Positions 28,925-36,204 of a DNA stretch of 44,793 nucleotides are shown piece after piece. The DNA is from Bacteroidaceae bacterium (GTDB lineage Bacteria > Bacteroidota > Bacteroidia > Bacteroidales > Bacteroidaceae): contig JAFYMP010000019.1 of the NCBI GenBank assembly GCA_017556585.1, positions 1-44,793 on the forward strand, read 5' to 3'. Positions within the stretch are counted from its first letter, which is position 1, and the number at the start of each line of letters is the position of its first letter. Below the pieces are notes generated by a model. The model was not told the DNA's origin, made no database searches, and saw only the letters and a program-made list of their open reading frames with translations. A program made the translations under genes and the position numbers.

Positions 28925-29485
28925 CTAAAATGTAAATGGAGAATCAAAATCTTTTAGAAGCGGATTCAGTTTATCCTTATCACTCAAAATCATCTGCTCT
29001 GCAGGTATCTGCCAATCTATTCCAAGCGATGAATCGGAAAACAGTATAGCTCCTTCAGATTCTTTAGCATAGTAATTATCACACTTATATTGGAAGATAG
29101 CATCATTACTCAATACAGAGAAACCGTGTGCCATACCACGTGGCAAAAACAACATTCTATGATTCTCTTCCGATAATTCCACAGATACCGACCTGCCGAA
29201 TGTAGGCGATCCTTTTCGAATATCTACTGCTACATCAAGAACCTTTCCTATAGGACAACGTACTAATTTACTCTGTGCGTATGGTGGTTTTTGAAAATGC
29301 AAACCACGCACTACACCATATTTGCTACGACTTTCATTGTCTTGAACAAAAACAACATCATCGCGTCCTATTAAAGCATTGAAATCTCTTTGAGAAAACG
29401 ATTCAAAGAAATAACCTCTTGAATCGCCAAAAACTTTTGGTTCTAATATATATACACCCGGTATTTCGGTCTTGATAATCTCCAT
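28925..29485 (-). CDS. rfbC: dTDP-4-dehydrorhamnose 3,5-epimerase
   Basis: RfbC epimerises dTDP-4-keto-6-deoxyglucose at C3 and C5. The cupin fold residues are visible: Arg/His in RGLHFQ (His63 is the base), the DVAVDIRKGSPTFG segment, and PRGMAHGF. Tyr138/139 of NYY is near the expected catalytic Tyr. The 186 residues are normal. It is the first gene of the operon, 17 bases from a -7 box. Confidence 0.97.
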   Translation of the reverse strand: MEIIKTEIPGVYILEPKVFGDSRGYFFESFSQRDFNALIGRDDVVFVQDNESRSKYGVVRGLHFQKPPYAQSKLVRCPIGKVLDVAVDIRKGSPTFGRSVSVELSEENHRMLFLPRGMAHGFSVLSNDAIFQYKCDNYYAKESEGAILFSDSSLGIDWQIPAEQMILSDKDKLNPLLKDFDSPFTF

Positions 29486-29501
29486 TCTTACTGATTTTGC
29501 A

Positions 29502-29509
29502 CAAAGTTA
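29502..29509 (-). promoter_or_regulatory. Predicted -7 box of the rfbC-rfbD-wzi operon
   Basis: TAACTTTG on the minus strand fits the -7 consensus and predicts a very short leader before the rfbC ATG at 29485. No good TTTG was found at -33. Confidence 0.5.
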
Positions 29510-29562
29510 AGCAATAAGAACAAAATAATCGGCATCAACCTCCATAAAATCATGGAAAACAT

Positions 29563-29588
29563 GAAGGGCGTTCTCTCGAACGCCCTTC
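29563..29588 (-). terminator. Terminator of the large lipoprotein gene
   Basis: A 10-bp perfect GC-rich stem (GAAGGGCGTT / AACGCCCTTC, 6-base loop) is followed on the minus strand by ATGTTTTCC. It lies 41 bases past the stop of the 1131-residue lipoprotein and insulates the rfb operon from it. Confidence 0.75.
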
Positions 29589-29629
29589 CCTTCAACATTT
29601 ACAGAATTTTATGCATCGTGCCTACGGCA

Positions 29630-32600
29630 TTAGTTTCCTGTATTTGCAGCCAATTTAACTTCATAAGTAGTTGATACAGTACCATACTTATAGTCAACTG
29701 AAGCCTTAACCTTAACGGTCAAATCTGAAGTCCAGTTATAGTTAACACAATTCAAAGCATAACCTACATATTTACCCTTTGAATCTGTAACAAGGTTATC
29801 AACTGAAATACCCCAAATATCTTCAACCTCTTCTCCATTTACATAGAGAGCCTCTACTTCAAAGTTAACATCAGCATCAACACCCCAAACAGGAACTACG
29901 GTATCATTAACATCACCCTTAGTAACCCAAGCATTACCGAAGTTATCAGTGAAGTTTACACCATTAGAGATGATACGTGAATCAGCAGCAGAATTCTTCA
30001 TTTGAGCCTCACTTATAGAGATTGACTGTGTATCAAATGTATAGTTGATTGGATATGCACCAGAGATGCCATATTCTTCCTTAGCAATTTCTGCGCCATT
30101 CTTATCCTTAACTACAACTGTGAATGAAATAGCTGCAAGAGCATCTGCTCCGGTAAGTATTTCTTTCTTTCCAAACTGATCAACAGTCTTTTCAATAGTA
30201 ACCTGCTCTGTCAATGATAAGATTCCGCTATTAATTTCAACACCTTTAATAGTAGCATTGCTATTATTGATTCCCTTAATATCATTCAGTGACCAGTCAA
30301 ATACACAATTCATTGCTGTGTACTTCTCATAATTAACAAATGCATTTGACATTGGCATGCTGATTGTATAACCTGCAGTTGCAGCCTTTACAGGGTCTGC
30401 ATAACCAAGCAACCACTTATTATTCTGCAACCAAGTTGCACTATGTTTCAAAATATCAGCAGCATCTGGAGCAACCAACTTAATTGAACCATTCAGTGTA
30501 ATTTTACCATATTCAGTATTGATTACACAACCCTGCAATGAATAATCTTGATACTTAATAGTAGCACCTGATGTAAATTCAACCTGAGCCTTGAATTGCT
30601 TATTAGCCTTATCTACAGTAATCTTTATTGTTGCAGGTAGAGTAGTCTTACCATCAGCTGATTTAAACTGACCTACAGTATATTCATTGTTCAATACAGC
30701 TGTTAACTGTTCAGCAGTAATATTGATTTCAGGCATAGCTGGGATAGCAACCGGCATAAGATTGGTAGCTTCAATATCCTTTCCACCATTCCATGCATAT
30801 TCTGCATAAACTACATCTTTACCATTTTCTTTCTTAGTCCAAGTGAATGCACCAAAATTTGCAGATGCATTAGAAGTTTTATTAACTATTTCGAATGTAA
30901 CTTCGCTTGTCCACACATTGTAAGTTGAAGTTGCCCCATTATATGTATAGTCGCCAAAAGCATTATCCTTTACGATTACTGTCAATTTCTTTCCTATTGC
31001 ATCCTTATCGGCAGCACCTTTAATACCTGCAACCTGAACTGCATTGTTATTAGCATCCATTGTAACAAAGTATTTTGCATCTGTATTCTTCCAGAAGCTT
31101 TCTGAATTCTTTGCATAATCTTTGTCATTGAAATAGTAAACATTTGCCCCATCTTTTACACCTACAAACTGCAAATCAGAAGTAAGTCCAGTAACTGCAT
31201 TAAAGTCGTAAGGTTTACCATTGCTAAGTGTAATATTCTGCATCAAATAGTCACTAGCAGTTGCTTTAACATTGAGGTCTGAATAGAACAAGTTCAGTGC
31301 TTGTTTTGAAGCTATTTTAACATTGCCAGAAGTAAACTTTTCAGCTTTAACCACGAAATAGTCAGATGAAATTTTAGTTGCGTTTTCTGACTCATCATAC
31401 TTAGCTTCATCTTCCTTAACTTCACCTTCCTTCATATCTCCATTGATTACCAACGCAAATGGATAATCGCCATCAGCTTCAAAGTTTGCATCAGCAACAA
31501 CTGTCAATATACCGTCTTTCGCATCTTTTACAGATACTATAGAAAGCTGATTATTTGCCGCAGCTCTGGTTTCTAATTTCTTTGAAGCAACCAAAGAAAT
31601 AAGTTCGGCCTTTTCAGAGAATAGTGCCTCAAGTTCTGCAGCTGCAACAGCCGGCTGTACACGGAATTTAACTGTAACTTGTGAATTTCTTTCAGGAACA
31701 GAATATGAGAACATTGGATATAATGCATTGTAATAATATGCGGGAACATACACTTTACCATTTGCATCTTGTATTTCAGGAATAAATACGATACTCTGTA
31801 TTCTCTTTGCAAGAGCATCTGTTGCAGATGTCAAACTAACAAGACTTTCATTGTATTTAGCAAGCTTTGCAACTTCATCCTCAATCTTCTTTTCAATATC
31901 CTTCTGGAACTTTTCATAACCAGCTTCTAAAGCCTTAATAGCCTCTGCCAGTTCTTCTTTCTGTTCTTCGAACGCAGCCTCAAATTCAGCACTGGTAATA
32001 TATGCTTCGAGTGATTTAGCCAAATCATCCTTTGTTATAAAAGCAGAAAGGTCATCACCAGACATCTCAACCAACTGTTTAAGTAAATCTTCAGCAGCAG
32101 TCAAACGTCCGTCAAATCCTTTAGCTACCTGATCTGTGTAAGCTTTTGCAGCATCCTGAGCAGCAACAATCTGAGCCTCAATTGCTTTATTCTGATCTGC
32201 TACACTCTTTTTTAAAGTTTCAAGTTCTTCAGAAATACCTGCTATATCTTCCTGTGACTTTACAAGAGATTCTTTAATATCTTTGTCAGCACCTTCAAGA
32301 GCTTTAATAGCCTCATCTACGCCCTTTATATAGTTAGCATTAGCATCAATTTGAGCCTGCAACTGAGCATCAGTAGCTGCAAGTTCGTTAGCCTTGCTTG
32401 TCAATACATCCTTTGATACGTAGTTTTCGGCGATTTCGTTCAAAGAAGCATCAATAGCATCTATCTCTGCTCCTAAATCTTTTGATACTTCTGCAATTTT
32501 TGCATTAAGTTCTGCAGCCTTAGCTACAATTTCAGCGTTTGCAGCAGCAATTGCTTCAGAATTCAGTTTGGTGTCTGTCTGAAGAGCTGTGATTGAAGCC

Positions 32601-33025
32601 TGAAGACTATTCAAAGATGCAGACATTTGTGCCTTACTATCTTGTAATCCGGCAACAACACTTTCTAAACTTGCACTTTTCTGTTCTAACACAGATACAC
32701 GTGCTACAGCCTCTGAAATAGTTTTTGCTAATTCATCAGCATCACCCTGAGCATCCTTAGCTGCCTCCATAGCTGCAGCTACCTCAGACTTTGCAGTTGC
32801 CAATTGAACAGCCAAATCCTGCTTAGCTGAATTCAGAGCGCTAATCTGTGATTCTAATGCTGCTATTTTTGCTGCCATGTCAGCAGTCAAAGAAGAAGCA
32901 TTCTGATCAATTTGTGTTTGCAAAAAGTCTATGTCTTCGTCATAGTCTTTACAAGACACAAAAGTTCCTGTTGAAGTTGCCAATGCAGCTCCAAACAAGA
33001 TTGCACTTAAAAACTTTTTGTTCAT
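29630..33025 (-). CDS. Large coiled-coil surface lipoprotein, candidate phase-variable
   Basis: The 1131-residue product has a lipoprotein signal peptide with Cys25 in FVSC. The next residues, KDYDEDI, are acidic like the lipoprotein export signal that sends Bacteroidota lipoproteins to the cell surface. Residues ~30-400 are Ala/Glu/Lys/Gln-rich heptad sequence predicted to be a long coiled coil. A junction (LAKRIQSIVFIPEI, about residue 405) leads to ~700 residues of beta-rich sequence, probably repeated Ig-like or adhesin-like domains. I do not recognise a named family. No consensus promoter lies in the fixed 170 bases upstream. Beyond that is an invertible-looking segment with an outward promoter, so expression probably depends on DNA inversion. 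Confidence 0.85.
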   Translation of the reverse strand: MNKKFLSAILFGAALATSTGTFVSCKDYDEDIDFLQTQIDQNASSLTADMAAKIAALESQISALNSAKQDLAVQLATAKSEVAAAMEAAKDAQGDADELAKTISEAVARVSVLEQKSASLESVVAGLQDSKAQMSASLNSLQASITALQTDTKLNSEAIAAANAEIVAKAAELNAKIAEVSKDLGAEIDAIDASLNEIAENYVSKDVLTSKANELAATDAQLQAQIDANANYIKGVDEAIKALEGADKDIKESLVKSQEDIAGISEELETLKKSVADQNKAIEAQIVAAQDAAKAYTDQVAKGFDGRLTAAEDLLKQLVEMSGDDLSAFITKDDLAKSLEAYITSAEFEAAFEEQKEELAEAIKALEAGYEKFQKDIEKKIEDEVAKLAKYNESLVSLTSATDALAKRIQSIVFIPEIQDANGKVYVPAYYYNALYPMFSYSVPERNSQVTVKFRVQPAVAAAELEALFSEKAELISLVASKKLETRAAANNQLSIVSVKDAKDGILTVVADANFEADGDYPFALVINGDMKEGEVKEDEAKYDESENATKISSDYFVVKAEKFTSGNVKIASKQALNLFYSDLNVKATASDYLMQNITLSNGKPYDFNAVTGLTSDLQFVGVKDGANVYYFNDKDYAKNSESFWKNTDAKYFVTMDANNNAVQVAGIKGAADKDAIGKKLTVIVKDNAFGDYTYNGATSTYNVWTSEVTFEIVNKTSNASANFGAFTWTKKENGKDVVYAEYAWNGGKDIEATNLMPVAIPAMPEINITAEQLTAVLNNEYTVGQFKSADGKTTLPATIKITVDKANKQFKAQVEFTSGATIKYQDYSLQGCVINTEYGKITLNGSIKLVAPDAADILKHSATWLQNNKWLLGYADPVKAATAGYTISMPMSNAFVNYEKYTAMNCVFDWSLNDIKGINNSNATIKGVEINSGILSLTEQVTIEKTVDQFGKKEILTGADALAAISFTVVVKDKNGAEIAKEEYGISGAYPINYTFDTQSISISEAQMKNSAADSRIISNGVNFTDNFGNAWVTKGDVNDTVVPVWGVDADVNFEVEALYVNGEEVEDIWGISVDNLVTDSKGKYVGYALNCVNYNWTSDLTVKVKASVDYKYGTVSTTYEVKLAANTGN

Positions 33026-33196
33026 AATTAAAACTTTAAATTTATAAATCTAAAAATTAAAAAATTGAAGATAAACATACACGTCAGCAATTTGCTTTAA
33101 GCTAAATTGTCTTTTTAACCTTATTAAACAACTTAATATTCAACATTTAATCAGCATTTATTTTACATAATACCTAATATTTAGTGCCACACAAAA

Positions 33197-33223
33197 CTCC
33201 TCTTTGATAGAGGTGGATACAAA
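33197..33223 (-). repeat. Left inverted repeat of the putative invertible promoter
   Basis: A 27-base repeat. Its reverse complement matches 24 of 27 bases of the copy at 33514-33540, and both share the 18-base core TCCACCTCTATCAAAGAG. This copy lacks the outer arm that makes the right copy a hairpin. It lies 172 bases upstream of the lipoprotein ATG. Confidence 0.85.
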
Positions 33224-33474
33224 TACAGAAATGTAAAATGCTAAGAATAAAAGCAGTATAAAGGATTAATGTGATGTTCTATTTGTAAACTTGAATTATA
33301 ATTATACGGTTCTAAGTATTAGTTGAAATACAACTTAAGTAAAAGTACTTATATAGGTTTATATTACGCACAGAACACAAACTATATAAATAAGGTATGA
33401 CGATTGCTTGCTGGAGAATAGCAGAACAAACAATTAGAATTTTTATGTAAATATGATTTTTTTTGAGATTTTTA

Positions 33475-33505
33475 TTTGTCAGATAAAAAAATAGGCATAC
33501 ATTTG
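33475..33505 (+). promoter_or_regulatory. Consensus promoter inside the invertible segment
   Basis: TTTG (33475-33478), exactly 19 bases, then TACATTTG (33498-33505). It is the only full match in the 344-base segment on either strand. In the present orientation the transcript would start near 33512 and enter the right repeat hairpin at once. Confidence 0.85.
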
Positions 33506-33513
33506 CGCTATAT

Positions 33514-33540
33514 TTTGTGTCCACCTCTATCAAAGAGATG
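33514..33540 (+). repeat. Right inverted repeat of the putative invertible promoter
   Basis: A 27-base partner of the repeat at 33197-33223, inverted, with mismatches only at repeat positions 6, 25 and 26. It is embedded in a larger palindrome (33517-33545). Confidence 0.85.
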
Positions 33541-33554
33541 GACACTTCTTTTTT
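33517..33554 (+). terminator. Hairpin terminator overlapping the right repeat
   Basis: GTGTCCA and TGGACAC arms, one opposed mismatch, then CTCT/AGAG around a 5-base loop form an 11-bp stem. TTCTTTTTT follows on the plus strand. In the OFF orientation it would stop the inverton transcript within about 40 bases and so keep it from running antisense into the recombinase gene. Confidence 0.7.
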
Positions 33555-33587
33555 GTATCTTAAGCAGAGATTTATAAATAAGCTATC

Positions 33588-34508
33588 TTAGTTTGGTTGC
33601 CATAATGGTTCGTAAATCTTATTAAGCACTGAGACATAAGAATGCATTTCTGTTTCAGCCAAAGATGCTAAATAAATTTTTGTTGTCTTTTCATTTGTAT
33701 GACCCATACAGCAACTTATTACAGATAATGGAATATTTAATCTGTATGCTTGATTCGCCCAACTATGGCGTGCGCAATAAGAACTTAAACCATTTTCTAA
33801 CCCAAGTGTCTTTGCAAGCTGACGTAGATTCCTATTATAACGATGTAATGCATTGGAATATTCATTATGAGCATAAGGATTTATACCCAAAGAAAACGCA
33901 TACACATCACCTACAATATGATATTTATCTACTATCATAAGCATTTTTCTTGTTATCCTGACATTTACACATTCACCAGACTTAGAACGATTATATCTGA
34001 AGAACCTTGAAGTTACTTTAATATCTTGATACCTTATTCGAACTAAATCCACAAAAGGCATTCCCTGTGCTAAAAATGAAAAATAGAATAGATCACGAGT
34101 TTGCATTAAGGCATAAGAATGTGATAAATCCATTGCAAACAGTTTTTTCAGTGATTTATCATCTAGTGATCTTTTCCGAGTTCGGTCTGTACCGGAATAA
34201 ACTGTTACAAAAGGATTCAGATCCTTACACAATCCTTTTTTAACAGCATTACGATATGACGCCCTCAAACATCTTATATATGCAGAACTGGAATTCTTAC
34301 ATATACGTTTTGACTTCAATAGCCATTGCTCATACGATTCTATAAGAGTACTTTCCAAATCTGTTAATTCCAAATCATTTTTGCCTAAATAGGTATTAAC
34401 AAACTGAGTAAAAGAACGAGCGGCTGCTCTGTAATTCAAAGCAGTTTTATGATTTGCCAATTTATCTTTGTAATCAGCTAATTTTAAAGTGTAATTAATG
34501 AATTTCAT
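33588..34508 (-). CDS. Tyrosine recombinase, probable DNA invertase
   Basis: The 306-residue product has an N-terminal SAM-like core-binding domain (about 1-105) and a C-terminal catalytic domain typical of Bacteroidales integrases. Visible are the beta-hairpin Lys in NRSKSGE (Lys176), ARHSWA with Arg247-His248, GHTNEKTT with His270, and the nucleophile Tyr279 in IYLASL. The box I segment reads AQGMPFVDL, where related proteins often have Arg before GM; here Gln148 stands there. The ATG at 34508 is chosen because the longer frame to 34607 would run into the rplS terminator. Its closeness to the inverted repeats makes it the likely invertase. Confidence 0.88.
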   Translation of the reverse strand: MKFINYTLKLADYKDKLANHKTALNYRAAARSFTQFVNTYLGKNDLELTDLESTLIESYEQWLLKSKRICKNSSSAYIRCLRASYRNAVKKGLCKDLNPFVTVYSGTDRTRKRSLDDKSLKKLFAMDLSHSYALMQTRDLFYFSFLAQGMPFVDLVRIRYQDIKVTSRFFRYNRSKSGECVNVRITRKMLMIVDKYHIVGDVYAFSLGINPYAHNEYSNALHRYNRNLRQLAKTLGLENGLSSYCARHSWANQAYRLNIPLSVISCCMGHTNEKTTKIYLASLAETEMHSYVSVLNKIYEPLWQPN

Positions 34509-34581
34509 CAATTTGTTTATTATTTTGTTATTAATCAACGGTACGAGTAAATAATGCCAATCAAATCTCTGCAAACAATAC

Positions 34582-34612
34582 AAAAAAAATGGACTGCATT
34601 GCTGCAATCCAT
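34582..34612 (-). terminator. Terminator after rplS
   Basis: On the minus strand a 10-bp stem (ATGGATTGCA / TGCAGTCCAT, one G-U pair) with a GCAA tetraloop is followed by TTTTTTTTG. It lies 22 bases past the rplS stop. Confidence 0.88.
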
Positions 34613-34634
34613 TCTATTCTTTCGTAGGAAAAGT

Positions 34635-34994
34635 TTAAGCGTTGCTTCTCTTTTCGCGGATACGTGCCTTCTTACCTGTCAAATTACGCAGGTAGTACAG
34701 TTTTGCACGACGTACTTTACCAATCTTGTTCACTTCGATGCTATCGATAGCCGGTGAATTGATAGGGAAGATACGCTCAACACCTACTGTGCCAGACATC
34801 TTACGAACTGTGAAACGACGGTTGTCACCGTGACCGCTAATCTTGATTACTACACCACGATAAAGCTGTACACGCTCTTTGTTACCCTCGATGATACGAT
34901 AAGCTACAGTAACTGTATCACCAGCTTTGAACTTAGGAAATTTGCCTTCCTTACCTGTAGCAAATGCCTCTTCTGCAATTTTAATAAAATCCAT
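34635..34994 (-). CDS. rplS: 50S ribosomal protein L19
   Basis: L19 sits at the interface between the subunits. The 119 residues contain [20 protein letters not shown], the [11 protein letters not shown] strand and [28 protein letters not shown] (in parts), ending with the basic ARIREKR tail. It is a single-gene unit with its own consensus promoter and terminator. Confidence 0.98.
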
Positions 34995-35078
34995 TTCTCT
35001 AAAATTGTAAAATAGTTAATGTATTGAGTGACATACCAAGTTACTCTTCCTATGGCAGCGATCACCCAAAAAGTGGCG

Positions 35079-35109
35079 CAAAGGTAATACAAAATATCTG
35101 ATTACCAAA
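35079..35109 (-). promoter_or_regulatory. Promoter of rplS
   Basis: The minus strand has TTTG (35106-35109), exactly 19 bases, then TACCTTTG (35079-35086). The predicted leader is about 78 bases, long for this window, so autoregulation through the leader is possible but not shown. Confidence 0.85.
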
Positions 35110-35135
35110 CCTATTTACAAATTGATTTTCAAATA

Positions 35136-35864
35136 TTACTCAAAATAGAGTGTCAGCACTATCATTCTATTCTGAATTGATGAGATTGATTGTGTGTATT
35201 TAAGCAAAGTCTCATCGGTTAAATCCTTGCGGTCCTTTACCAATATATCGGATAAGCCAAAACAGAATTTAAGCTCCGGAATAAGTTTAAAGAAAGGATA
35301 GTAAAGGTCTATACCCATACCTATTTCAAACATACAATCCATTCGTTTAACTAAAATCTCTTTCTGCTTTTTCACTGTTAAATCTACTGTAGGCATCAAT
35401 CCTGTCATAAGATATGGACGATAATTATTGAATCTGGGTGCGCTTACCTTAACATCGAAAGGTATAGCCATGTATGTAGATTTGATTATCTGTTCCTTCT
35501 TTTGTCCGGACAACTGTTCTGAATATACCGTCTGCTTATCTCCAAAATACATAGTTGGTATTATTCGCAAGGCCAAATTCTCAGACAGTTTCAGTTCACC
35601 AAGTATGCCTACACTGAATCCCGGTGTATAGGCTGCCACGTCGGCATACCAATACTCCAGTTCCCCATTTGCATTTATGTATGGAAATCCATTGTTGGTT
35701 ATATTCATATCTTGGTAATTCAACCCCAGAGAGAAACCATAATGCCACACCCTATCATCTAAATAGGGTCTGTTCATTACCTTTCTTTCCTGTGAAAATG
35801 CCATTACCGGAAATAGCAGAAACAGCAGAAGCAGTAGTTGCTTTATGTTACATTTCAATCTCAT
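35136..35864 (-). CDS. porT: PorT-like outer-membrane beta-barrel protein
   Basis: The 242-residue product has a signal peptide (MRLKCNIKQLLLLLFLLF.. ending FSQ). Its start YLDDRVWHYGFSLGLNYQDM and the strand pattern APGFSVGILGEL-like TPGFSVGILGELKLSENLALR match PorT/SprT, a component needed for the type IX secretion system in Porphyromonas and Flavobacterium. No other T9SS gene is in the window, and PorT-like barrels also occur in species without T9SS. The frame can be extended to a TTG at 35909, but the ATG at 35864 places the signal peptide correctly. Confidence 0.75.
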   Translation of the reverse strand: MRLKCNIKQLLLLLFLLFPVMAFSQERKVMNRPYLDDRVWHYGFSLGLNYQDMNITNNGFPYINANGELEYWYADVAAYTPGFSVGILGELKLSENLALRIIPTMYFGDKQTVYSEQLSGQKKEQIIKSTYMAIPFDVKVSAPRFNNYRPYLMTGLMPTVDLTVKKQKEILVKRMDCMFEIGMGIDLYYPFFKLIPELKFCFGLSDILVKDRKDLTDETLLKYTQSISSIQNRMIVLTLYFE

Positions 35865-35990
35865 CAACTGTAATAACGAATTTAACCGCTTTTTATTGCA
35901 CAATGTCAAAAATCGTCGTTTTCTTATTTAGACAGTTTCCAAATTATAAAAATCAGACCTTTAGAATGCACTCATAGAGCAAAAAGTATG

Positions 35991-35998
35991 TAATTTTG
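35991..35998 (+). promoter_or_regulatory. Predicted -7 box of the ferredoxin gene
   Basis: TAATTTTG matches the -7 consensus and lies 35 bases before the ferredoxin ATG. The -33 region has no clear TTTG. Confidence 0.45.
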
Positions 35999-36033
35999 CA
36001 ACAGATATAAACAACAAATTAATTTAAATATTT

Positions 36034-36204
36034 ATGGCATACATTATCAATGACGACTGCATCGCTTGCGGAACTTGCATCGATGAATGTCCATCAGAGG
36101 CTATCAAGGAAGGTGAAAAGTATTCAATTGACGCTGATTTGTGCGTAGATTGCGGTACTTGCGCAAGTGTTTGTCCTTCAGAGGCAATCCAGCCAGGTGA
36201 ATAA
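36034..36204 (+). CDS. 2[4Fe-4S] ferredoxin
   Basis: A 56-residue clostridial-type ferredoxin, easily missed because it is so short. Two CxxCxxCxxxCP motifs are intact: CIACGTCIDECP near residues 9-20 and CVDCGTCASVCP near 37-48, each followed by SEAI. It is an electron carrier for anaerobic redox enzymes such as pyruvate:ferredoxin oxidoreductase. The strongly acidic composition is typical. It has its own -7 box and a terminator. Confidence 0.96.
   Translation: MAYIINDDCIACGTCIDECPSEAIKEGEKYSIDADLCVDCGTCASVCPSEAIQPGE

Follow-up and report, generated by a model that had tools for sequence, protein, structure and literature searches.

Genes and repeats at the locus

The window, by which we mean the whole 44,793-nucleotide stretch of DNA analysed here, carries a gene for a putative surface lipoprotein of 1131 amino acids (29630..33025, − strand) and, upstream of it, a tyrosine recombinase gene of 306 amino acids (33588..34508, − strand). 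The lipoprotein begins with a signal peptide and a lipobox ending in FVSC and followed by KDYDED, all recognized by eye, and its residues 27-395 make up a proline-free, helical part. The protein, its C-terminal part included, reached the cut-off of no Pfam or NCBIfam family, and a search of PDB sequences returned weak matches only (best E 0.0022). Its N-terminus is common across genera and the remainder diverges fast: local matches fell mostly within the first 46-280 residues, and matches into the C-terminal part came from the relatives G205, G218 and G103:C8 (genome and contig) and, weakly, from G064 and G135:C6. The recombinase lies above the cut-offs of Pfam PF13102 and PF00589, both domains of a tyrosine recombinase. 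A start at TTG 34607 was considered and set aside, as the alignment favors ATG 34508, which is probably the true start. The reading frames of both genes are intact.

Between the two genes we found a pair of 27-nt inverted repeats, the left, gene-side one at 33197..33223 and the right, recombinase-side one at 33514..33540, identical at 24 of 27 positions and sharing an 18-base identical core. They enclose a segment of 290 bp (33224..33513), with 171 bases between the left repeat and the lipoprotein ATG (33026..33196, − strand); on the other side, the recombinase stop lies 47 bases from the right repeat. A repeat-finding tool gave the pair as 33200-33223/33514-33537 with 96% identity. In an ungapped inverted-repeat scan of the whole 44.8-kb window, with arms 90-700 bases apart, this pair scored 21 versus 15 for the next-best one and versus 18 for the best pair among 40 Markov-1 resampled windows.

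The segment contains a Bacteroidota-type promoter, TTTG-N19-TACATTTG, on the + strand at 33475..33505 (TTTG at 33475-33478, TACATTTG at 33498-33505), which is oriented away from the lipoprotein gene. Four copies of the strict motif, TTTG-N19-TANNTTTG, occur in the window, one of them inside the segment, and zero to two in each of 30 resampled windows; one of the three other copies (35109, − strand) lies just upstream of rplS. A motif scan of the fixed stretch 33026-33196 gave no strict match. Because the only promoter is directed away from the gene, the lipoprotein would be OFF in the assembled state. Inversion about the axis x -> 66737-x is predicted to bring the promoter to 33232..33262 on the − strand, about 200 nt upstream of the ATG, with the -7 box at 33232-33239. 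On recalculation the repeats and their identity, the promoter and its direction, the spacing to the recombinase gene, the position of the -7 box after inversion, the lack of a promoter in the fixed region and the OFF state all came out as the original prediction had them. Inverted repeats around a promoter next to a surface gene, with a tyrosine recombinase gene 47 bp away, fit the Bacteroidota invertible-promoter class, here with a large putative surface lipoprotein as the predicted gene under control.

Recombination-site class and recombinase

The sites of tyrosine recombinases usually consist of arms flanking a short crossover region. Each repeat holds a core resembling such a site, CTCT-N5-AGAG with an asymmetric spacer (CTCT-TTGAT-AGAG at 33200-33212 and CTCT-ATCAA-AGAG at 33525-33537). 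Read on the + strand, the left spacer is TTGAT and the right one ATCAA, and the two sites are therefore in inverted orientation. We searched for the full-site pattern with at most two mismatches, counting matches strand-wise (a single site is often counted on both strands) and using the reversed pattern as a control. There were 3 matches in the window's own genome (G000), 9 in G064, 7 in G086, 9 in G104, 12 in G227, 12 in G103 and 3 in G308, with 0, 0, 1, 1, 1, 2 and 2 control matches, respectively; with 3 matches versus 2, the pattern does not single out G308. Of the three matches in the own genome, two are the right-hand site, counted on each strand, and the third is a two-mismatch match elsewhere; the left-hand site falls below the pattern.

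In G086 and G104, the same site class precedes a gene of the UpxY family (NF033644, above cut-off); a single recombinase may therefore be shared by lipoprotein and capsule-type loci. The class described here, CCTCT-N5-AGAG, is common to lipoprotein and capsule-type loci in several genera. At the two UpxY loci, an inverted pair with an outward promoter stands before the antiterminator gene (L155:3444-3651 in G086:C62 and L156:3759-3967 in G104:C86). Further copies of the site were seen at contig ends, at the start of G104:C115 (L158:1-23) and at the end of G064:C113 (L154:3635-3657, contig end 3691), where the contigs possibly stop at assembly branch points of other invertons.

Recombinase matches at E <= 1e-58 were present in 5 of 399 family genomes (the own genome, G064, G086, G104 and G261). 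In a tree of 21 recombinases, the window's enzyme fell in a clade with those of G064, G086 and G104 (support 100/99), which belong to another genus and adjoin the same site type. The eight rows beside CCTCT-type sites are in one group (94/94) that also takes in G261 and G162, outside those eight site-assigned rows. Its domains and place in the tree make the recombinase the likely inverting enzyme. In the alignment, one catalytic-domain position reads AQGM in the window and ARGM in several relatives. The own genome has a second candidate inverton (L093:6930-8123 in G000:C7, about 34929-36122), upstream of a 146-aa gene without an assigned function; no strict promoter was seen there by eye, and a related tyrosine recombinase (42% identical) is followed by perfect 22-nt inverted repeats around 248 bp.

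Segment orientation in related cassettes

We surveyed the regions upstream of related lipoprotein genes, taking gene starts from the N-terminus matches listed, which cover at least 76 of the 399 family genomes, and from a search of one genus that had matches in 6 of 18 genomes. Among the matches listed there were 129 distinct starts, of which 16 with less than 500 bp upstream were set aside, leaving 113. An inverted-repeat pair within 1 kb upstream was found for 42 of the 113 genes versus 0 of 565 resampled sequences. At 13 of the 42 loci a promoter scoring at least 12 lies between the repeats, facing away from the gene (OFF) in 12 cases and toward it (ON) in one, G135:C84. The other 29, without a strong promoter match (low scores: 21 OFF, 3 ON, 5 ties), were left out of this count. 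Ten of the 42 loci have a recombinase in the surveyed upstream stretch (1.5 to 3.5 kb), and eight of these recombinases, each reading toward the lipoprotein gene, stop no more than ~65 bases from where the outer repeat starts. The lipoproteins closest by N-terminus, those of G205 and G218, lack both a repeat pair and a nearby recombinase in the upstream stretch surveyed, apart from a weak partial match in G218 (E 5e-6); the notion that the two genes always move as a pair is not supported. Two side observations concern gene number: L096 (G113:C4:244000-262000) holds two head-to-head lipoprotein genes, each with its own ATCTCTTA-type repeat pair and with near-identical segments, and genomes of genus g14 have up to 11 family genes among the matches listed.

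In the G064 cassette, the order of the parts matches that of the window: recombinase, 27-nt repeats, outward promoter and lipoprotein. In G086 and G104 the recombinase half and the lipoprotein half are on separate contigs. The G086 recombinase contig stops on the final base of the repeat, which we read as an assembly-graph branch from a mixture of two orientations, a chance break being possible as well; the G104 contig ends fall in a repeated stretch inside the segment and are uninformative on orientation. An opposite-orientation copy of the window locus was found in none of the relatives searched, and a second copy of the switch DNA in none of 40 relatives of the own genome, bar short weak matches in the own genome and one other.

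Both orientations were observed in G135. Between the sites, its segments at C84 and C6 are reverse complements (a 287-column block at 95.5% and a 197-column block at 98.5%), and the 88 bp that separate the gene-side site from the ATG align collinearly (96.6%). The same 31-nt promoter points toward the gene at C84 (ON) and away from it at C6 (OFF), so this class of segment does invert. As the two loci are paralogous and not alleles, this applies to the class and not to the window copy, whose own inversion we infer. The C6 copy is adjoined by a recombinase (36.7% identical), and the 10-kb C84 contig holds only the part of the recombinase tail that lies inside the segment, on the opposite strand. 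The C84 segment (L242) is also longer by ~170 bases, located ~420 to 260 bases before the ATG; this stretch has inverted ends, is missing at C6 and looks like a small mobile insertion.

The site architecture, the recombinase clade, the survey and the two G135 orientations all strengthen the predicted invertible promoter, and for the window copy itself flipping stays an extrapolation from its relatives. We consider it highly probable that the locus is a phase-variation cassette in which the recombinase flips the promoter segment and so switches the large surface lipoprotein ON and OFF, and the switch is very probably functional. The enzyme would recombine the two inverted sites by strand exchange at the 5-nt spacer, and the promoter of the flipped segment would then drive the lipoprotein gene, so that part of the population would display the protein. 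Speaking against this reading are the failure to find this locus in the opposite orientation, the OFF state of 12 of the 13 strong-promoter loci, the paralogous nature of the only ON locus, the AQGM change and the lack of a repeat pair or close recombinase in G205 and G218.

In G358 and G141, a similar promoter faces the lipoprotein gene. No inverted-repeat pair was found upstream of that gene in either genome, this homologous promoter is the only strict one in 1,300 bp upstream, and a 43-bp match between the window promoter region and its G358 counterpart has 81% identity, with the strand relative to the gene reversed. These gene-facing counterparts support the assignment of the promoter to the lipoprotein gene. 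They also bear on the proposal that the segment inverts but merely modulates a gene with an additional fixed promoter. Our scans would miss promoters outside the strict motif; nevertheless, the fixed stretch holds no strict match and the sole strict promoter in both relatives is the homologous one, and we regard a fixed promoter as improbable.

The right repeat is part of a hairpin (33517-33545) followed by TTCTTTTTT, which together (33517..33554, + strand; -15.7 kcal/mol with flanks, z -4.8) look like a terminator for the OFF transcript, placed immediately after the OFF promoter; folding of the left site is weak. The same layout is seen in G064, with a T-run and -23.2 kcal/mol. A consensus terminator scan returned 5 sites, versus 2.6 (sd 1.7) in shuffles. 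The right site is not among them, but the left one (5 pairs) is, on the ON-transcript strand, which counts against a directional reading. We compared the eight OFF loci with both sites recognized, excluding G308 (one site) and G135:C84 (ON). A strong hairpin with a T-run occurs in the window and G064, one G227 locus has a weaker hairpin with a T-rich tail, and the other five of the eight are without a T-run; in G103 (3 loci) and at G135:C6 the better-folding site is the gene-side one. On these grounds we rejected the view that the outer site generally acts as a terminator.

The strong hairpin, together with the probable insertion of the whole block (see below), would suit repeats that are mere transcription terminators or mobile-element ends and never invert. 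But the repeats sit within the insertion, away from its ends, the left one forms a weak hairpin, related genes repeatedly have such pairs upstream, and a G135 segment of the same class exists in both orientations, all of which makes this explanation extremely unlikely. In its present orientation the promoter is directed at the 3' end of the recombinase gene, and the switch might accordingly act on the recombinase or on a small RNA instead of the lipoprotein. Such a transcript would, however, be antisense and meet the terminator-like hairpin after ~40 nt, and the homologous promoter faces the lipoprotein gene in G358, G141 and G135:C84; we judge this target very unlikely and keep the lipoprotein gene as the target of the switch.

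In five relatives (G103, G227, G135, G149 and G064; L151, L153, L249, L250 and L048) the recombinase frame extends across the outer site and into the segment; inverting the segment in silico alters the last recombinase residues. The C-terminus of the window recombinase is untouched by inversion because its stop lies 47 bp before the repeat. Among the openly licensed papers listed, no title or abstract opening describes a recombinase overlapping its own inverton, and we make no claim that it is unpublished; excerpts of PMC11892184 present invertases near invertons as generally non-regulatable and report direct intersection for restriction subunit S genes. As a tentative idea, which we think doubtful, the cassette could be a transferable plug-in switch in which the recombinase-side site doubles as a directional terminator, ending the OFF transcript and protecting the recombinase against antisense transcription, with the weak hairpin on the gene side letting the ON transcript through; in related cassettes, read-through would let each flip rewrite the recombinase C-terminus and could feed back on switching. 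Under the directional-terminator reading, the hairpin asymmetry would survive each flip because strand exchange leaves the outer arms in place. The idea offers testable suggestions on how such switches insulate or bias themselves.

Likeness to known loci and probable insertion into the chromosome

The original prediction recognized the general kind of switch but not this lipoprotein cassette, which in fact resembles the phase-variable S-layer lipoprotein loci of Bacteroides thetaiotaomicron. According to excerpts of PMC12118408, PMC12578637 and PMC12548429, BT1927-type loci share with the window a large surface lipoprotein, an invertible promoter between inverted repeats and a nearby site-specific integrase. 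The BT1927 product forms a crystalline-like surface layer and confers resistance to phages and complement (excerpts of PMC12548429). The site sequence differs, that of the window being of the CCTCT-N5-AGAG type, and BT1927 has, in the same excerpts, a partner barrel gene, Bt1926, whereas downstream of the window lipoprotein gene come rmlC, rmlD and a Wzi-like gene, with no Bt1926-like outer-membrane barrel gene directly adjacent. The 19-bp repeat consensus of the B. thetaiotaomicron S-layer loci, as excerpted from PMC12118408, was found at the repeats of homologues of the window protein, exactly in G123 and G361 and with one mismatch in G047; the link in sequence runs through these homologues, the likeness to BT1927 itself being one of locus layout. 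By this analogy we lean toward an S-layer role for the window lipoprotein, which, once displayed, would probably form an S-layer-like coat protecting against phage or complement.

The comparison also bears on whether the segment once inverted and is now a relic, locked OFF through a decayed recombinase or site. Only the OFF state was seen at the window locus, the repeats are not identical and the recombinase differs at one variable catalytic-domain position. However, BT1927-type loci, too, are mostly OFF, with ~1 in 1,000 cells expressing BT1927 in rich medium (excerpts of PMC12548429). With both reading frames intact, the 18-base core identical and the promoter a perfect match, we find a relic quite improbable and prefer a working switch.

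Parabacteroides distasonis reportedly has a family of phase-variable glycoproteins (Fletcher 2007), surface proteins each behind an invertible promoter with a recombinase gene; the likeness is to that description and not to a sequence. Bacteroidales capsule invertons with UpxY genes share palindromic repeats, an internal Bacteroidota promoter and nearby invertase genes (excerpts of PMC12118408 and PMC11892184). They drive polysaccharide operons, unlike the window's lipoprotein target, and most of their published site palindromes contain GTTAC-GTAAC in the excerpted part of PMC12118408. The kind of switch is thus already known; its site class, insertion history and side features were not seen described in the literature examined.

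The cassette lies within a block of 5,052 bp between rmlC and rplS (29528..34579) that is absent, by blastn and gene order, from G012, the closest relative by rplS (99%). There, rmlC and rplS are adjacent, with 32 bp at the position of the block, and window positions 29270-29527 and 34580-34788 align to either side of these 32 bp (blastn of the intergenic region). Among 34 other genomes of the genus with rplS, we examined nine neighborhoods, covering 9-11.5 kb around the gene: rplS and rmlC are adjacent in five, and neither the recombinase nor the lipoprotein is present in any. In 36 other genomes of the genus there was no recombinase match to E 1e-35 and no lipoprotein match to 1e-30, and the lipoprotein N-terminus search had no other same-genus genome among the matches listed; no other genome of the host lineage that was searched thus had a close match to the cassette. 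We found no DNA match in phage records and no relatives of the recombinase or lipoprotein in viral contigs. Given that the closest relative lacks the 5.05-kb unit and has rplS next to rmlC, the unit was probably gained as one block, loss in every sampled relative being less likely. A phase-variable surface-protein cassette with its own recombinase and site type would thus most likely have moved as a 5-kb block into a conserved chromosomal neighborhood. Of ten further window proteins scanned, nine are of ordinary chromosomal types (e.g. RpoA, SecY, EF-G and ribosomal proteins) and one has no family.
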